Positions 45,263 through 57,202 of a DNA stretch of 64,000 bases are shown one piece after another (the first letter of the stretch is position 1; every line of letters starts with the position of its first letter). Both the position numbers and the translations under genes were made by a program. The DNA is taken from NCBI RefSeq assembly GCF_001889405.1, contig NZ_CP017921.1, forward strand, positions 944,057-1,008,056, given 5' to 3'. The notes under the pieces are model-generated. The model ran no database searches, was not told the origin of the DNA, and saw only the letters and a program-made list of their open reading frames with translations. The DNA is from Methanohalophilus halophilus (GTDB lineage: Archaea; Halobacteriota; Methanosarcinia; Methanosarcinales; Methanosarcinaceae).

Positions 45263-46543
45263 ATGGAGCGGGAAGTAGGGCATATTCTTGAGAAAATTAA
45301 CCGTAAAGATGCAACAGTTTTCACCTCTCAGGAACTTTGTGATATGATCGATGCAGGTGATGATGTTGGTTTTGAGGATGTTGATGTGGTGACTGCTGCT
45401 ACCAGGGCGATTATGAGTGGAACTTATGCAGTCCTCTCATTTCCGGTAGCTACCGGGGAAAAATTCACCCGCGCTTCTGCTGTAACCATAAATGAAGTGG
45501 ATGCCCATGTGGGCCCCTGTCCCAATGAAAGGCTGGGTATACTGGACTTGATGGTTTTTGGTACTGCACACAGCCATGACAGGGAAAATTATGGAGGTGG
45601 CCATCTTTTCCGGGATATTGTGGAAGGCAACCCTGTGGATGTCGATGTAGTTACCGATGAAGGAAAGAAATATTCAGATACAGTGTCCATTGAGGATATG
45701 CCATACGCACAGCTGTTTGCAACGCGTCATGCATTTAAGAATTACAGTGCCTTTGTGAATTTTTCCCAGTCTCCCGTTTCCACGATTTTCCATGCAACCA
45801 CCTTTGCACCCGATGCCACTGAAGCCACTATGTCCGGATGTGGGCAAATAAACCCTGTAAAGAATGATCCGCATCTCCATGGTATCGGTGTGGGAAGTCG
45901 CATTCTTCTCAACGGTGCGGAAGGGTTCATCCTGGGTTCGGGGACGCGTAGCAGCCCGGGAAAACCCAATTTGATAGCAACGGCGGATATGCATTCTATG
46001 GTGGCTGATTATATGGGAGGTTTTGCTACATCTGCAGGTCCTGAATGTATTGTTTCCTGGGCAGTTGCAGTGCCTGTAGTTGATGATTCAGTATTCGATG
46101 CGGTCAGGCAAACGGACAGCGCAGTACCAATGCCTGTAATGGATGCTGATCGCAGGGTAAAGGTTGCAATGACAAGTTATGCAGATGCCTGGAAAGATGT
46201 AGATCTTGAGGTTGCTTTCAACCCCGGCAAATGTTGCATGTGTGATGTCTGTGAACCAATGGAAAAATGTCCGATGGACTCAATCTACTTCAAGGGGGAT
46301 AAAGTGGTACTGAACAGGCACACATGTTTTAACTGCGGTCTATGCTCCACTCTATGCAGTGATGTATTCAAGGCAGACCTGGGAAGTCTAAAATTTGATT
46401 ACGAAGGGAAAAGTATGAATGTCCCTATTGTTGTGCGCCAGTCTGATCGTAAACGTGCACTCATAATGGCTGAAAAATTAAGGGACAGTATAAAGAATGG
46501 AAGTTTCATCTTGAATGGAATGGTAGAGCGGATTTCTCCATAA
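45263..46543 (+). CDS. Methanogenesis marker protein 16 (DUF39 sulfur-incorporation family)
   Basis: The 426-residue protein has the DUF39 fold, whose members make homocysteine from aspartate semialdehyde and sulfide, plus a C-terminal pair of [4Fe-4S] motifs: CCMCDVCEPMEKCP and CFNCGLCSTLC. Conserved features are GPCPNERLGILDLMVFG, NYGGGHLF and SGCGQINPVKNDP. ATG 45263 follows GAGGA by about 6 bases and starts just after the kef stop; an earlier in-frame start at 45230 lies within kef. The 3' end overlaps comE by 38 bp convergently. Confidence 0.88.
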   Translation: MEREVGHILEKINRKDATVFTSQELCDMIDAGDDVGFEDVDVVTAATRAIMSGTYAVLSFPVATGEKFTRASAVTINEVDAHVGPCPNERLGILDLMVFGTAHSHDRENYGGGHLFRDIVEGNPVDVDVVTDEGKKYSDTVSIEDMPYAQLFATRHAFKNYSAFVNFSQSPVSTIFHATTFAPDATEATMSGCGQINPVKNDPHLHGIGVGSRILLNGAEGFILGSGTRSSPGKPNLIATADMHSMVADYMGGFATSAGPECIVSWAVAVPVVDDSVFDAVRQTDSAVPMPVMDADRRVKVAMTSYADAWKDVDLEVAFNPGKCCMCDVCEPMEKCPMDSIYFKGDKVVLNRHTCFNCGLCSTLCSDVFKADLGSLKFDYEGKSMNVPIVVRQSDRKRALIMAEKLRDSIKNGSFILNGMVERISP

Positions 46544-47075
46544 ACCGCTTAATTATATCTTCAGGACATAGCCGGATGACAGGAACCTTCTTGTTGCCGG
46601 CTTTTGTCTTTACTATGAGGACGCCGTTTTCCATTGTATCCAGTTTCTTTTTAAGGCCTGACTCATCGGACACCATGGCAACATTTTGTACACCGGCTCC
46701 TAAAGCAACTTTTTTGAGGTCTGTCAATCCTGCAGTTGCGGTTATTTGATTGCCCGTAGAGCCATATGCACCATTATCGATGATTACAAGGAGATAATTA
46801 TCCGGATGCTGGTTGGCTATTGTTGCCAGGCTTCCCATATTCATCAGTACCGACCCATCACCGTCAATTGCGATAACTTTCCTTTCAGGTCTTGCCAGGG
46901 CCAGCCCGAGTCCTATGGAAGAAGAAAGGCCCATTGAACCAAGCATGTAGAAATTTGCCTTTCTGTCATATATTTCGTGTAATTCTTTTGAGGGGAATCC
47001 GATGTTTGCAATTATCAGAGTGTCTTTATCTCCCTCTTTTTCAGCAAGAATCTCAAGTGCACCGTAGCGTATCAT
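46506..47075 (-). CDS. comE: Sulfopyruvate decarboxylase subunit beta
   Basis: ComE is the TPP-binding half of sulfopyruvate decarboxylase, which makes sulfoacetaldehyde for coenzyme M. The 189-residue protein has GSMGLSSSIGLGLALARPERKVIAIDGDGSVLMNMGSL with GDG and a DNGAYGSTG segment, the TPP motif. It is coupled to comD by a 4-bp overlap. Its 3' end crosses into the convergent marker-16 gene. Confidence 0.93.
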   Translation of the reverse strand: MIRYGALEILAEKEGDKDTLIIANIGFPSKELHEIYDRKANFYMLGSMGLSSSIGLGLALARPERKVIAIDGDGSVLMNMGSLATIANQHPDNYLLVIIDNGAYGSTGNQITATAGLTDLKKVALGAGVQNVAMVSDESGLKKKLDTMENGVLIVKTKAGNKKVPVIRLCPEDIIKRFMEKSALPFHSR

Positions 47076-47569
47076 GATTCCCTCCAGAAACCTATACTCA
47101 ATAGGATAGCTGCTTGTTTTCCTTCTTCAAAGGCTTTTTTAGTGGCTTTTTCGATGGTTTTCCTGGACTGTGCAAGATCTGGTTTGTATGCAGGAATATC
47201 CAGAACTTCGAGTAAGAGGGGTGTTTTTTCACCCATTGGTACCTGGGCGCAGATGGGTTCTCCTTCAACCCCCCTGTGGCTTATAATTATCAGTAATGGA
47301 ATGTTGTATAGGCGATTGAGAGATGCAAGGGCATTGATGGAATTGCCCATCCCGGAATTTTGCATCATTATGGCCGGTTTTTTCCCTCCCATGTAGGCCC
47401 CGGCGCAGATTCCTATGCCTTCCTCCTCCCTGGTGGCGGGTACGTGGATGATGTCCGGATCACTGTCGACCATGGGAATGAGTTTCTGTAGATTGGCACA
47501 CGGTACGCTGACTATAAAATCAATGCCGGATTCCTTTATAGCCTTGAATACTTCCTGAGACGGGTCCAT
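47072..47569 (-). CDS. comD: Sulfopyruvate decarboxylase subunit alpha
   Basis: ComD is the other half of the decarboxylase. The 165-residue protein has FIVSVPCANLQKLIPMV and EEEGIGICAGAYMGGKKPAIMMQNSGMGN, with the catalytic Glu that activates TPP. I start it at ATG 47569 (MDPSQEVF), 5 bases after AGGAG; an earlier ATG at 47587 overlaps the cysteate synthase gene and has no such site. Confidence 0.93.
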   Translation of the reverse strand: MDPSQEVFKAIKESGIDFIVSVPCANLQKLIPMVDSDPDIIHVPATREEEGIGICAGAYMGGKKPAIMMQNSGMGNSINALASLNRLYNIPLLIIISHRGVEGEPICAQVPMGEKTPLLLEVLDIPAYKPDLAQSRKTIEKATKKAFEEGKQAAILLSIGFWRES

Positions 47570-47583
47570 GTAGTCTCCTTCCT

Positions 47584-48825
47584 TCATTCGAATTTGCCTT
47601 CAGTTTTTTGTATGATCTTTGCTGGCGCTTCACTGTCATCAGGGGATACTAAGAGATCAGGTTCAAGCCTGATGGTGGGAAGTTCCTTTAAAGCCCTTTT
47701 AACTCCTCCACCAGTGATATTGAGCATTATGAGTTCTGATGCTGACACCTTTGTGTTCCTGACAGCTTTTATCAGAGCGGCTGTGGCTACAGCTGCTGAA
47801 TTCATAATATCGATGCCTTCAAGTTCTTCAAATAGCAACCTGGCTTCTTCTGCCTCTTCATTGGTAATCCCATAAAAATCCCCTTTTGTGGCTTCAAGGG
47901 TATCTCTCACTCCTCCGCCCACCGCATACGGAGGTTTGCGGTTAAACAATACAGTGTCGTACATTCTTTCAGGACATTTCGGATCTACTGGAACGCCCTC
48001 GTGTAAATGGATAAGGGGTGCACAGGGGAGGTTTTGGGCAAGATGTAACTGTGGTAATTTATCTCCATATCTGCCGTCCTCTTTCAGGCGCATAGCTGCT
48101 TCCCAGGCAGCAATCCCGCCGGTTCCACTACCCACTGCCTGGAAATAGTGGTCCGGCAGATGTTTCATGGTCAGTGTTGCATCCAGCATTACCGTTCCCA
48201 TTCCATCCCGGCGTGCTACGTTCTTAGCACCGCCTTCAGGTACGAATCCTTCTCTTTCGGTAATCCGGGAGGCTATGGATATGGCATCATAGTAATCTCC
48301 CTGTACAGCTGCAACACAGATTGATGATGCAGATCCTGCAGGAATCCAGAGTTTTTCAATAGCATTTGCAGGAACTACCAGAAGTAAAGGTAGGCCTGTT
48401 ATAGAGGATACATGTGCAAAGGCACGGGCAGTATTACCTGCAGAGGCTACTACCATTGTATTTTTTTCTTTCTGCTCGATTACCCTCTGCATTGTAGGGT
48501 ATGATTCAAGGTCCTTGAAGCTGCAGGTTCTCATAAAAGCCCCTTTTTCCGGCCAATAACCGTTGAAACTTATGTATAGTTTCTCAAGACCGAGTTTATC
48601 GGCAAGGTTCTCACTTTTGTAGGTTAATGTTTTTCCGCTTCCCTTTTTGATTATACCTTCCACGGGTAGCCAGTTATAGAATTTCCATATTCCCGGCAGA
48701 TCACATGGCTTAAACCTGGTTTTTGAGTATTCTGTTCTCAAAAGAGTTCCATCAGTGGGACATACCATGTCATATTTGCCATAAGTCTTGCCACATTTTG
48801 GGCAGATGAGTCTGTATTTGTCCAT
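47584..48825 (-). CDS. Cysteate synthase (threonine-synthase-like)
   Basis: This PLP enzyme makes L-cysteate from O-phosphoserine and sulfite, the entry to coenzyme M in Methanosarcinales. The 413-residue protein has a zinc-ribbon-like N-terminus (CPKCGKTYGKYDMVC), the PLP-lysine region FKDLESYPTMQRVIE, and VVASAGNTARAFAHV, VGSGTGGIAAWEA and a terminal NITGGGVKRAL. comD and comE follow, which fixes the assignment against plain threonine synthase. Confidence 0.9.
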   Translation of the reverse strand: MDKYRLICPKCGKTYGKYDMVCPTDGTLLRTEYSKTRFKPCDLPGIWKFYNWLPVEGIIKKGSGKTLTYKSENLADKLGLEKLYISFNGYWPEKGAFMRTCSFKDLESYPTMQRVIEQKEKNTMVVASAGNTARAFAHVSSITGLPLLLVVPANAIEKLWIPAGSASSICVAAVQGDYYDAISIASRITEREGFVPEGGAKNVARRDGMGTVMLDATLTMKHLPDHYFQAVGSGTGGIAAWEAAMRLKEDGRYGDKLPQLHLAQNLPCAPLIHLHEGVPVDPKCPERMYDTVLFNRKPPYAVGGGVRDTLEATKGDFYGITNEEAEEARLLFEELEGIDIMNSAAVATAALIKAVRNTKVSASELIMLNITGGGVKRALKELPTIRLEPDLLVSPDDSEAPAKIIQKTEGKFE

Positions 48826-49941: not shown

Positions 49942-50364
49942 TTATTGAACGTTGCTCTGGCCACATTCATTTTCAGCGATTTCCTTTATTCGCTTGATGA
50001 TCGATTCCAATCCATTCGATCTTGCGGGTGAGAGATTTGATTTCAATCCGGTTTTTTCAATAAAGTACAGATCAATGTTTGCAATTTCCCGGGGATACCG
50101 ATTGTTTACGACCCTGAGTAAAAGGGCCATAATCCCCTTGGTTATCATGGCATCACTATCGAGATTAAAACTCAATTTGCCATCCTTCTTATAACTTTGA
50201 ATCCAAACTTTAGATTGACATCCGCTGATTGAATTTTCATCGGTTTTGGAATCTTCATCCATGGGTTCTAGTTTTTTGGCCGAAGTGATAAGAAGGTCAT
50301 ACTTGTCAAGCCATTCAAGGCCATCAAATTCCCTTATTATTTCATCCTGGATAGCATCTGTCAC
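49942..50364 (-). CDS. sufE: SufE-family sulfur acceptor protein
   Basis: SufE takes persulfide sulfur from SufS and passes it on. The 140-residue protein has the family motif SISGCQSKVWI with the accepting cysteine near 49, and the central GIMALLLRVVNNRYPREI helix. It is the last gene of a four-gene operon, overlapping sufS by 4 bp. Its likely target here is the rhodanese-like protein encoded first in the operon. Confidence 0.9.
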   Translation of the reverse strand: MTDAIQDEIIREFDGLEWLDKYDLLITSAKKLEPMDEDSKTDENSISGCQSKVWIQSYKKDGKLSFNLDSDAMITKGIMALLLRVVNNRYPREIANIDLYFIEKTGLKSNLSPARSNGLESIIKRIKEIAENECGQSNVQ

Positions 50365-51542
50365 GAGTACATCATCTCTACTTTTTCAATCCCTTCAACA
50401 AGCCTGTCTACATCTTCTTTTGTATTATACAATGCAAAACTTGCTCGTACTGTGCCTTCTATTGCGAAGGATTCCATCAATGGCTGGGCACAATGATGCC
50501 CTGTTCTGACAGCTACTCCCATCTTATCCATTATGAGGCCTGCATCATAATGGTGAACCGGATCTATATTAAAGGAGATTGACCCACACATTCGGTCTGT
50601 ATTTCCATAAACTGTCACATTATCCATCTCCAGCAGTCTGTCTCTTGCGTAAGAATAAACGTCACTCTCATACTTTTCTATTTTTCCCAGACCTATTTTT
50701 TCCATGTAATCAATTGCTGCACCCATGCTTATTGCTCCTGCAATGTGCGGTGTGCCTGCTTCATGTCTTAAAGGGGGTTCTTGATACGTTGTTTTTTCGA
50801 GACTTACTTTATCGACCATACCGCCTCCGCCCTTTGCCGGCATGAGATCACTGAAGCGATCGTTTGTATAAAGCACCCCAACTCCGGTTGATGCATACAT
50901 CTTGTGTCCTGAAGCAACCAAAAAGTCACAGTCAATAGCTTTTACATCCAGGGGCAAATGCTGTATTGATTGGGCTGCATCCACCAGTACCGGGACATCA
51001 TGGTCCTTTGCAATTTCAGTTATTTCCTTGATATCGTTTACAGAACCAAGAACATTTGAGACATGACTGATAGCAATCAATTTTGTATCCTTTGTGATAT
51101 CTATAGAGTCCAACAGCAAATTGCAATCCTCATCCATCTGAATTGCCCTTAGTTTTGCTCCTGCCATCTGCCAGGGAACGATATTTGAGTGGTGTTCCAC
51201 ACCTGTTACCAGGACTTCATTTCCCCTTAAGGAAGGTTCAAGTGAACGTGCAACCTGATTTATGGCATCGGTAGTCCCGGCAGTAAATGTCACTTCATCC
51301 GGGTTGCGAGCACCTATGAAGTCACTTACCTTTGTCCTTGCTTCTTCATATCTCTCACTTGATCTCTCACTCAGGTAATGTACACCTCTATGGATATTAC
51401 TGTAATCTGTCTTATAGAAATCAGATATGGTATCAATCACAGAGTTTGGTTTCTGGGTTGTTGCTGCGTTATCAAGATAAACCAATTGTTTTCCATAGAC
51501 TTCTTTTTCAAGTATAGGGAAATCTTTTGCAAAACCTGTCAT
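50361..51542 (-). CDS. sufS: Cysteine desulfurase, SufS type
   Basis: SufS removes sulfur from cysteine as an enzyme-bound persulfide. The 393-residue class V aminotransferase-fold protein has VYLDNAATTQKP, GVEHHSN, the PLP lysine in ASGHKMYASTGVGVL, and the catalytic cysteine in RTGHHCAQPLM. It overlaps the SufE gene on one side and the methyltransferase gene on the other by 4 bp each, so this copy seems dedicated to the operon rather than a general Suf system; no sufBC is nearby. Confidence 0.93.
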   Translation of the reverse strand: MTGFAKDFPILEKEVYGKQLVYLDNAATTQKPNSVIDTISDFYKTDYSNIHRGVHYLSERSSERYEEARTKVSDFIGARNPDEVTFTAGTTDAINQVARSLEPSLRGNEVLVTGVEHHSNIVPWQMAGAKLRAIQMDEDCNLLLDSIDITKDTKLIAISHVSNVLGSVNDIKEITEIAKDHDVPVLVDAAQSIQHLPLDVKAIDCDFLVASGHKMYASTGVGVLYTNDRFSDLMPAKGGGGMVDKVSLEKTTYQEPPLRHEAGTPHIAGAISMGAAIDYMEKIGLGKIEKYESDVYSYARDRLLEMDNVTVYGNTDRMCGSISFNIDPVHHYDAGLIMDKMGVAVRTGHHCAQPLMESFAIEGTVRASFALYNTKEDVDRLVEGIEKVEMMYS

Positions 51543-52501
51543 TGTTTCACCATTTCAACAAGGGAGAACCATTTCTTATCATCATTAAAGATGCTTTCTA
51601 CAGAAAGTCCTGCAGCATTTGCCATTTTATTGATACCATCAACAGTATATTTATGAGAGTTTTCTGTGTGTATGGTCTCGTCTTTTTTGAATACTATCTG
51701 ATCTTTTAAGAAGGGACTTGTTACTTCCAGGTCTTTCTTTGCCTTCAGATGCATCTCTATTCGGGAATGTTTTTTATTGAAGAATGCAACATGTTCAAAT
51801 TCTTCTGGATAGAAATCAGTCTCAATATGGTCGTTTACAACTTTTAAAATATTCTTATTAAACTCTGCAGTAATCCCCTGGCTATCATTATAGGCTTTTT
51901 CGATGATATCAATATCTTTTACCATATCCACTCCCAGGAGAAGCCTGTCGTTATTATTCATGACTTTGCCAAGGTCTGTCATGAATTTCATTGCTTGTAC
52001 TTCAGTAAGATTACCGATTGTACTTCCGAAGAAACAGAAGAACCTTCTCCTTTTTGCAGGGATTTTTTCAATATGTTCAAGGAAGTCAGCAGTAATCCCA
52101 TGGATATTCATTTCAGGATATGTGTCCTGAAGATTACAGGCAGATTTCTCTATAGCTTGTTTGCATACATCAACCGGGTAATATACTATAGTCTGGCGAA
52201 TCTCTTCTGGTATTTCATCGAGAAATACAGAAATTTTGGAACAGTCTCCGCTTCCAAGCTCTACAAGATCACAGTCTTTCAATTCTTGTTTCAATTTTTG
52301 GGCAGTTGACCTGAGCAATGGAATCTCAACTTTTGGAGGATAATATTCTTCTAAATTAGTGATCATTTCAAACAATTCCGAGCCATGATGGTCGTAGAAA
52401 AACATAGAAGGAAGTGTTTTAGGATTGGTTCTGAGACAGGCTATCATCTCTTCCCTGATGGAACTTTCTCCAACTTTTGGCATAAAATCTTCTATGATCA
52501 T
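51539..52501 (-). CDS. eanA: Histidine N-alpha-methyltransferase (EgtD/EanA type)
   Basis: The enzyme should methylate histidine three times to hercynine (trimethylhistidine). The 320-residue protein has the EgtD signature MFFYDHHGSELFEMITNLEEYYPP, the SAM motif LVELGSGDCSK, GSTIGNL and ETIHTENSHKY. Residues known to bind histidine in mycobacterial EgtD (Tyr56, Asn166, Tyr206, Met252, Glu282, Ser284) appear as Tyr54, Asn164, Tyr204, Met250, Glu280 and Ser282, a constant offset of two. That favours histidine over other substrates. It is coupled by 4-bp overlaps to the rhodanese gene before it and sufS after it. Confidence 0.88.
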   Translation of the reverse strand: MIIEDFMPKVGESSIREEMIACLRTNPKTLPSMFFYDHHGSELFEMITNLEEYYPPKVEIPLLRSTAQKLKQELKDCDLVELGSGDCSKISVFLDEIPEEIRQTIVYYPVDVCKQAIEKSACNLQDTYPEMNIHGITADFLEHIEKIPAKRRRFFCFFGSTIGNLTEVQAMKFMTDLGKVMNNNDRLLLGVDMVKDIDIIEKAYNDSQGITAEFNKNILKVVNDHIETDFYPEEFEHVAFFNKKHSRIEMHLKAKKDLEVTSPFLKDQIVFKKDETIHTENSHKYTVDGINKMANAAGLSVESIFNDDKKWFSLVEMVKQ

Positions 52502-53760
52502 TCTTTAGGGACCCCCGTCTCAAAAGGAAGATTGTTATTGCTCCACTCAAACCATCCACCATCATAAACTGCTGCTTTATCCCATCCCATAAGCCATGCA
52601 TTTAAAAAGGCTTCACTGCCTCTCCAGCCAGTCCCACAGTAGAATGCATTACGTTTATCAGGAGTAATTCCAAGTTTTTTCCAGTGTTCTGCAATTTCCC
52701 GGAATTCACGCATGGTGTGGTCCAGGTTCCTGTAGTTTTCCATGTGGTAGGCGTCTGTTCCGCAATCACCGAATACTGCTCCCGGAATCCTACCTTTCTT
52801 TTCAATATAATTATAACCACTTACTTCTCCAATGTACTCCTTCCAGCTTCTGACGCTCACCAGGTTCTTGTCAGGAGATGCAAGAATGTCTTTTGCTTCT
52901 TCAAGATCAACAGCAATTTCCGGCTTTTGCGGTATGTCAATTCCAAAAGATACTTTCTCGCTTTTAGAAGGAGATGTAGTGATTTCATAACCAGAATCCA
53001 GCCATGACTGAAGACCGCCATTGAGTATGCGCACATCTTTCACACCGGCATAAAGCATGATGAAAGCACATCTCATTGCACCGAGATGGCCTGCACTGCT
53101 TCCCGGGAACGGATCATCATTATTTGGTGAAGAGAATTTTCCATAAAGTATGACTGTTGTGTCATGTGTTATGCCTGCCTCTTCCAGTGCAGCCTTTAGT
53201 TCCTCTGGGGAGCGGCGATTCCATGTCTCTGGCGACTCAAGGGAGTTTGTGTCAATAGGGATAGCTCCGGGAATATGGCCTTCATCATAATCCGAAAGGT
53301 TCCTGTAATGAGAATGACAGATCACGAACTTATCATTGTTGTATTCCGCAGCATCATTTGTTGTGATCAATTGGTTAAGCCAATCCGCTGAAACCAGATG
53401 CTCATATCTTTCAAGATGCTCCATGGGCAAATCTTTTTCTGCCCATTCAAAAAAATCGTTGAAAACAGTTATATCAGGATACCCGGCTTTCTCAAACTGC
53501 CTTGCCACCTCTTCTGCCTTTTGTGGGTCATATCCATAAATGATAAGAGAATCTTCCGGCAGGATACCTTTATTTCTTACTATCTCTATCCAGTCAATAT
53601 AGTGTAACCATTTGTAAGGCAGAGTTTTTGCACCTTTGATGTGCCCTCCTCTTGCCTCTCCACTTTCTTTCCAGCCATTATAGGCATCAATGGATCTTAT
53701 ATCAATTACCTTATAGTTGTCTAAGTCTTCTGCTAACTTTTTAGTTGTAATTTTCCCCAT
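52498..53760 (-). CDS. eanB: Multi-rhodanese sulfur-insertion protein (EanB-like)
   Basis: The 420-residue protein has three rhodanese-like domains (about 5-115, 118-265 and 270-418). The active-site loop is YCGTGWRGSEAF with Cys375. EanB of Chlorobium, which puts sulfur into hercynine to give ergothioneine without oxygen, has as I recall Cys412 in the same loop, Tyr353 and Cys370. Here Tyr316 and Cys333 sit at exactly those distances from Cys375, and Cys148 fits Cys184 within one residue. ATG 53760 is used: TATA is 26 bp upstream and no ribosome site is seen, so it is probably leaderless. It heads an operon with eanA, sufS and sufE. Ordinary thiosulfate sulfurtransferases usually have two domains. 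Confidence 0.8.
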   Translation of the reverse strand: MGKITTKKLAEDLDNYKVIDIRSIDAYNGWKESGEARGGHIKGAKTLPYKWLHYIDWIEIVRNKGILPEDSLIIYGYDPQKAEEVARQFEKAGYPDITVFNDFFEWAEKDLPMEHLERYEHLVSADWLNQLITTNDAAEYNNDKFVICHSHYRNLSDYDEGHIPGAIPIDTNSLESPETWNRRSPEELKAALEEAGITHDTTVILYGKFSSPNNDDPFPGSSAGHLGAMRCAFIMLYAGVKDVRILNGGLQSWLDSGYEITTSPSKSEKVSFGIDIPQKPEIAVDLEEAKDILASPDKNLVSVRSWKEYIGEVSGYNYIEKKGRIPGAVFGDCGTDAYHMENYRNLDHTMREFREIAEHWKKLGITPDKRNAFYCGTGWRGSEAFLNAWLMGWDKAAVYDGGWFEWSNNNLPFETGVPKE

Positions 53761-53780: not shown

Positions 53781-53790
53781 CTTTATATAT
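53781..53790 (-). promoter_or_regulatory. TATA box of the eanB-eanA-sufS-sufE operon
   Basis: ATATATAAAG on the minus strand is centred about 26 bp from the A of the eanB ATG, so transcription should begin at or within a few bases of the start codon. Confidence 0.6.
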
Positions 53791-53937
53791 TATTTGGGAT
53801 TTACTTTTTAGGGATCGTCTTTTACAGGATTTTCTGCTATCCTCTAAGTATATATTATGATATATCCCCGGTTGTCACAACTTCGGTAGCGATAAGGGCA
53901 TAGTTAGTGCAAGCAGTCTGAGTTGCCGGTACGCAGT

Positions 53938-54201
53938 TTACCCTTCGTGTTCCTTCTGTATCTGCTCCGGGGTAAATTTTTCTACTTTGACTGCACGTGC
54001 TTTGTCGCGCAGGGAAACTGGTACGTTCCCTAATGCCTCTGCTTCACTCTCGGCATCTACAATAGCCCAGCCGACGTGTACATCAACCCGGCAACCGAAA
54101 TAGTACTGATCTAATATGTCGCTCCCCAGCGCCAGTGTTTCATCTAATGCTTCAAGGCATTCTTCTGCTGTGTGTGGTGACTCCACAAGATATTTTGTCA
54201 T
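53938..54201 (-). CDS. Small conserved protein, dimeric alpha/beta-barrel-like
   Basis: The 87-residue protein (MTKYLVESPHTAEECLEALDETLALG ... VDVHVGWAIVDAESEAEALGNVP) alternates strands and helices like a ferredoxin-fold, dimeric alpha/beta-barrel domain. No catalytic motif is evident. GGAGG lies 7 bases before the ATG. Two palindromes lie 25-60 bp upstream, in its probable leader, and may be regulatory. The family is not identified. Confidence 0.7.
   Translation of the reverse strand: MTKYLVESPHTAEECLEALDETLALGSDILDQYYFGCRVDVHVGWAIVDAESEAEALGNVPVSLRDKARAVKVEKFTPEQIQKEHEG

Positions 54202-55742: not shown

Positions 55743-57202
<1,460 letters not shown>

Follow-up and report, generated by a model that had tools for sequence, protein, structure and literature searches.

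The 64,000-nt window of the Methanohalophilus halophilus genome analyzed here (contig NZ_CP017921.1, positions 944,057 to 1,008,056) carries four overlapping genes, eanB, eanA/egtD, sufS and sufE. We propose that they probably form an operon for anaerobic ergothioneine synthesis with its own supply of cysteine-derived sulfur, in which a persulfide would be relayed from SufS through SufE to EanB; ergothioneine as the product, sulfur flow in this direction and a contact between SufE and EanB are predictions from sequence. Homology, active-site residues, synteny, co-occurrence and phylogenetic trees all lend good support to the assignment of an EanAB-type pathway with a dedicated SufS and SufE supply.

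In the proposed pathway, EanA, a methyltransferase of the EgtD type, would convert histidine and three molecules of S-adenosylmethionine into hercynine. SufS would desulfurate cysteine, hold the sulfur as a persulfide on its own active-site cysteine and pass it to the acceptor cysteine of SufE. From SufE the sulfur would reach EanB directly, through another cysteine of EanB, or with a small persulfide or polysulfide as carrier. The resulting persulfide on EanB Cys375, helped by Tyr316, would then sulfurate C2 of the hercynine imidazole and yield ergothioneine without oxygen.

The four proteins of the operon

The initial annotation had described four genes that overlap by 4 bp each behind a single TATA box, and the coordinates, strand and junctions all agree with that description (Table 1). 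The junctions read ATGA for eanB/egtD, ATGA for egtD/sufS and GTGA for sufS/sufE. A TATA-like box lies at about the same distance from the eanB ATG in most methanogen relatives, the rest of the upstream DNA having diverged. The layout is consistent with a single leaderless or nearly leaderless eanB-egtD-sufS-sufE mRNA with a predicted transcription start.

Table 1 Features of the predicted operon, in window coordinates.
Feature	Position	Strand	Remarks
eanB, rhodanese-type hercynine sulfurtransferase (predicted)	52498..53760	-	420 aa, ATG at 53760
eanA/egtD, histidine N-alpha-trimethyltransferase (predicted)	51539..52501	-	320 aa
sufS, cysteine desulfurase (predicted)	50361..51542	-	393 aa, member of cassette-specific SufS clade
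sufE, sulfur acceptor/carrier (predicted)	49942..50364	-	140 aa, GTG start
operon TATA box AATATATAAAG	53782..53791	-	~27 bp upstream of eanB ATG

The best matches of the EanB protein were the crystal structures of Chlorobium limicola EanB (PDB 6ktv/6h98; E=3.5e-176), to which it is 62% identical. YnjE was the second-nearest solved family (E ~2e-83), and ordinary thiosulfate sulfurtransferases were far weaker; an alignment to EanB, put forward as a test in the initial annotation, thus returned EanB itself rather than an ordinary sulfurtransferase. PF00581 recognized three rhodanese stretches, with the catalytic Cys375 within the last one, in YCGTGWR. The initial annotation had also equated Tyr316, Cys333 and the Cys375 of CGTGWR with EanB Tyr353, Cys370 and Cys412. 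These residues are present and align with their C. limicola counterparts at an offset of 37, a register confirmed by crystallized variants in which Tyr353 is replaced by F and Thr414 by V. Glu308, Thr377 and Arg380, which correspond to Glu345, Thr414 and Arg417, are all kept. The equivalents of Glu345, Tyr353, Cys412, Thr414 and Arg417 are invariant among the EanBs compared below, whether their genes are linked to sufE or sufS or not (for Cys412, 27/27 linked and 48/48 unlinked proteins).

The methyltransferase passed the EgtD equivalog model TIGR03438 (354.4 bits against a cut-off of 290.9), matched PF10017 with 354.6 bits and aligned with EgtD in the PDB at E=3.7e-57. Its histidine-binding residues Tyr54, Asn164, Tyr204, Met250, Glu280 and Ser282 are all present as claimed earlier, with Asn164 inside the GSTIGN motif in the alignment to Mycobacterium smegmatis EgtD; the literature numbering of EgtD differs by 2. 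The retention of these residues, together with the equivalog match, makes it very unlikely that the operon yields another thioimidazole or a selenium compound instead of ergothioneine. Some EanB-like enzymes may put sulfur on other heterocycles, according to Beliaeva and Seebeck (PMC9516567), but EanB Glu308, Tyr316, Thr377 and Arg380 agree with the C. limicola site and do not vary among linked and unlinked proteins, and selenoneine was not obtained when its synthesis was attempted with C. limicola EanB (PMC9103826).

SufS passed TIGR01979 (506.2 bits against a cut-off of 475.1) and, when aligned to E. coli SufS and CsdA, places its pyridoxal phosphate (PLP) lysine in SGHK and its persulfide cysteine in RTGHHCA. 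SufE matched PF02657 with 141 bits (cut-off 27); its acceptor cysteine, located by alignment to E. coli SufE and CsdE, lies in a GCQS motif found in 27/27 methanogen loci. SufE is single-copy in the host genome, where other cysteine desulfurase-like proteins are encoded. In none of the four operon proteins did we find a metallopterin-binding module fused to a desulfurase, the arrangement of the MES enzyme considered below.

Two observations concern TAG codons in these genes. At 10 of 27 methanogen loci (L030-L057), the sufE stop codon is TAG, unlike those of eanB and sufS (TGA or TAA); read-through with pyrrolysine may occur at the SufE tail. One locus, L040 (genome G021), has an in-frame TAG at egtD codon 127 (LQD-TAG-YPE) in a gene that is otherwise intact and part of a conserved operon. 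These archaea can read TAG as pyrrolysine, and this TAG may be a decoded pyrrolysine codon, a mutation or an error.

Distribution of the gene set in archaea and bacteria

EanB was found in 29 of 112 Methanosarcinaceae genomes, spread over 4 of 14 genera (named loci include Methanohalophilus, Methanolobus, Methanococcoides and Methanosalsum). Searches of the 238 genomes of the class found it in no genome beyond those 29, and searches of the 392 genomes of the phylum found it in no other genus. At all 28 methanogen loci with long enough contigs, which cover the four genera, eanB-egtD-sufS-sufE was uninterrupted (in one of them the contig ends within sufE). Because gene order and overlaps are kept across four genera, the operon is not a chance arrangement. 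EgtD occurred in 30 of the 112 genomes, namely the 29 with EanB and one whose contig ends inside egtD. A PF02657 search detected SufE in exactly these 30 and in none of the other 82; the nominal p of this match, 6e-28, is not to be taken literally, as the genomes are related. Of the 30, 29 also have the cassette SufS, and the remaining one has a contig break. Genera g1, g7 and g10 each include genomes with the whole set and genomes without it, and close relatives from the window's own genus (G034, G035, G037), like several g7 and g10 genomes, lack EanB, EgtD and SufE all together. To judge from these relatives, the operon may be gained or lost as a unit.

A scan of 84,980 species genomes returned 420 EanB relatives, and the nearest 80 of these 420 supplied the neighborhoods described next and the EanB set compared below. 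Among them, the full four-gene order also occurred in Thermoplasmata (L081, and L085, which is cut by the contig) and in at least five bacterial phyla, at loci from Phycisphaerae, Syntrophomonadaceae, Aminicenantes, Omnitrophota (three) and Elusimicrobia. The genome search for this order suggested by the initial annotation therefore located it in 28 methanogen loci and beyond methanogens. EanB-SufS-SufE without an adjacent EgtD was seen at three loci, and EanB adjoining SufE with no adjacent SufS at seven (Calditrichota, Gemmatimonadota, Ignavibacteriota and others). At Bacteroidota loci, EanB lies mostly beside EgtD, without SufS or SufE. When 25 EanB genomes were searched for EgtD, 23 had it, at another site if not next to eanB; most linked genomes without an adjacent egtD likewise encode it at another site. 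A class search centered on a Chlorobiota metagenome-assembled genome contained two EanB genomes.

These patterns make it highly improbable that SufS and SufE serve iron-sulfur (Fe-S) cluster assembly or some other sulfur need and are mere neighbors of eanAB. SufS and SufE are classic Fe-S assembly proteins, found beside sufABCD in E. coli, yet none of the 82 Methanosarcinaceae genomes that lack the pathway encodes SufE, and the gene order is kept across archaea and many bacterial phyla. Moreover, the host genome encodes other cysteine desulfurase-like proteins, and the cassette SufS is phylogenetically distinct from the second SufS copies of the same genomes (for example, in G246 and G247).

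Some loci outside the methanogens bear on how the pathway relates to oxygen. In the bacterium BMS3Abin03 (G246), whose genome holds the EanB-SufS-SufE locus L082, egtD at a second site (L179) adjoins a gene that looks EgtB-like by eye; aerobic and anaerobic ergothioneine routes may coexist in this genome. Flavobacterial EanB genes without an adjacent egtD were seen at L110, L132, L136, L138 and L141 (Salinimicrobium), with EgtD elsewhere in 4/4 of these genomes searched. Salinimicrobium is presumably aerobic, and at its loci this oxygen-free enzyme may be used by aerobes.

Linked and unlinked EanBs and the source of sulfur

The EanB tree comprised 75 EanBs, 27 of them linked to SufE or SufS and 48 unlinked, together with C. 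limicola EanB. A single branch (Shimodaira-Hasegawa-like approximate likelihood ratio test [SH-aLRT] support of 97) splits all 27 linked from all 48 unlinked EanBs, with the C. limicola protein among the unlinked; when YnjE was added as a distant outgroup, the linked EanBs still formed one clade (support 95). Among the 48 unlinked loci, 35 extend 2.7 kb or more downstream, so the absence of SufE there is informative. Cassette SufS proteins form one clade (100/98) apart from other SufS proteins, taken from the same genomes or similar ones; the one cassette and one non-cassette copy of G246 fall apart in the tree, as do those of G247. The EgtDs of four-gene loci likewise form one clade (support 99). 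In the EanB tree, Methanosarcinaceae and Thermoplasmata did not group together, and the Thermoplasmata joined Aminicenantes (95), which suggests that the two archaeal groups acquired the cassette separately by horizontal transfer.

Linked and unlinked EanBs differ most in the second rhodanese domain, which holds 16 of the top 20 discriminating positions. In control splits, most separate clades gave 2-8 of 20 positions in this domain, whereas neighboring backbone splits gave 15-17 of 20. Since the signal is common to neighboring branches, it marks this region of the tree rather than the SufE link exactly, and we treat it as a lead, not as proof of a docking site. Two cysteines of this domain, in window EanB numbering, differ in frequency: Cys148 occurs in 25/27 linked and 22/48 unlinked proteins, and Cys231 in 24/27 and 14/48, respectively.

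The initial annotation had proposed that a cysteine desulfurase and SufE supply EanB. Linkage, co-occurrence and the separate SufS clade all favor this proposal, and the cassette proved not to be specific to methanogens. An alternative, which we regard as unlikely though well short of negligible, is that EanAB make ergothioneine while EanB is charged by inorganic polysulfide, SufS and SufE only raising the sulfane-sulfur pool without touching EanB. C. limicola EanB works in vitro with IscS plus cysteine and with polysulfide directly, and its direct donor was identified as polysulfide, with Cys412 buried (PMC9103826); the identity of catalytic residues in linked and unlinked EanBs also fits this alternative. 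However, SufE, which accepts persulfide from SufS and delivers it onward, adjoins eanB even where sufS does not, and it is absent from every Methanosarcinaceae member without the pathway. The linked EanBs are moreover a clade of their own, and the residues that set them apart are concentrated in the second rhodanese domain, subject to the caveat that neighboring branches share this signal.

Several points weigh against a dedicated protein relay. The role of IscS with C. limicola EanB has been re-interpreted in favor of polysulfide as the direct donor, with Cys412 at the end of a 13 A tunnel into which IscS could not reach (PMC9103826); direct transfer from SufE to Cys375 is therefore uncertain. 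In addition, adjacent sufS is missing at the seven linked loci noted above (SufS is encoded elsewhere in 5/5 of their genomes checked), 13 of the 48 unlinked loci are too short to be informative, support within the linked EanB clade is modest, and the EanB set is the nearest 80 of 420 matches. In a SufS-SufE-EanB relay, sulfur might reach Cys375 at the tunnel end through an intermediate cysteine or with a small persulfide as carrier, or the tunnel of the linked lineage might open elsewhere.

Taken together, the data allow a broader and more tentative reading, which may quite possibly hold. EanB would exist as two lineages, one of the C. limicola type that is fed by free polysulfide and another that takes persulfide bound to protein from a dedicated pair of SufS and SufE; this pair may dock on the second rhodanese domain, where Cys148 and Cys231 may relay the sulfur. 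The four-gene cassette leading from cysteine to ergothioneine would then have spread among archaea and anaerobic bacteria.

Genomic surroundings, known systems and implications

An orphan open reading frame at 53938-54201, which had neither a family assignment nor a match in relatives, was dropped as a member of the operon. About 1.1 kb past the sufE end of the operon, at window positions 46506-48825, a cysteate synthase gene (TIGR03844, 569 bits) is followed by two sulfopyruvate decarboxylase-like subunit genes. These look like coenzyme M synthesis genes, the decarboxylase part being judged by eye. Near the operon, positions 55743-56903 encode a PLP enzyme that resembles Sep-tRNA:Cys-tRNA synthase, its identity being judged from sequence; a tRNA-dependent route to cysteine may thus be encoded near an operon predicted to consume cysteine.

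The anaerobic ergothioneine pathway of C. limicola EanA and EanB was reportedly described in Burn 2017, Leisinger 2019 and Cheng 2020. The window operon would use the same two enzymes, with the same catalytic residues and the EanB identity given above. It differs in its linkage to sufS and sufE, which does not occur in the unlinked clade that includes C. limicola EanB (35 informative loci; the neighborhood of the C. limicola gene itself is known from the literature), and in its proposed donor, that of C. limicola EanB in vitro being polysulfide, or cysteine with IscS. MES of Caldithrix abyssi also converts hercynine to ergothioneine without oxygen, taking sulfur from cysteine via a desulfurase module (PMC9516567). 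Unlike the four separate proteins of the window operon, which include a rhodanese, MES is an unrelated metallopterin enzyme with the desulfurase fused in one chain and no SufE.

The supply half resembles the SufS-SufE and CsdA-CsdE pairs of E. coli, in that a type II cysteine desulfurase is combined with a SufE acceptor and the catalytic lysine and cysteines align. In contrast to those pairs, it has its own SufS clade, it stands without sufBCD, and its proposed client is EanB. Charging of rhodaneses by cysteine desulfurases, as proposed for the window operon, has precedents in the transfer from IscS to YnjE, the nearest non-EanB solved relative of the window protein, and from ABA3 to STR18 (PMC8931425). 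Those relays serve molybdenum cofactor, tRNA thiolation or general transfer, whereas the window rhodanese is predicted to form the C-S bond itself, with SufE in between.

Such a cassette had been thought new in a methanogen by the initial annotation. This does not hold for its EanAB half, since Methanohalophilus mahii is named for eanAB in a 2025 review that cites Burn et al. 2017 (PMC11993508) and Methanococcoides vulcani in a 2020 review (PMC7278568). EanAB in methanogens is thus already reported, as a genomic prediction. The coupling of SufS and SufE to EanAB was not found described in the open-access literature, subscription papers, including Burn et al. 2017, being outside the search; no open-access paper with both EanB and SufS was found, and those with ergothioneine and SufE were on other matters, judging by their titles. 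Novelty therefore lies in the dedicated linkage to SufS and SufE, in how widely it occurs and in the split of EanB into two lineages.

These results strengthen the case for ergothioneine synthesis by strictly anaerobic methanogens. Both cysteine desulfurase and polysulfide have been proposed as the physiological sulfur donor of C. limicola EanB, whose active site seems too deeply buried for delivery by a protein. An EanB lineage whose sampled loci all show linkage to SufE or SufS, together with a SufE tied to the pathway across a whole archaeal family, points to a route by way of cysteine-derived, protein-bound persulfide.

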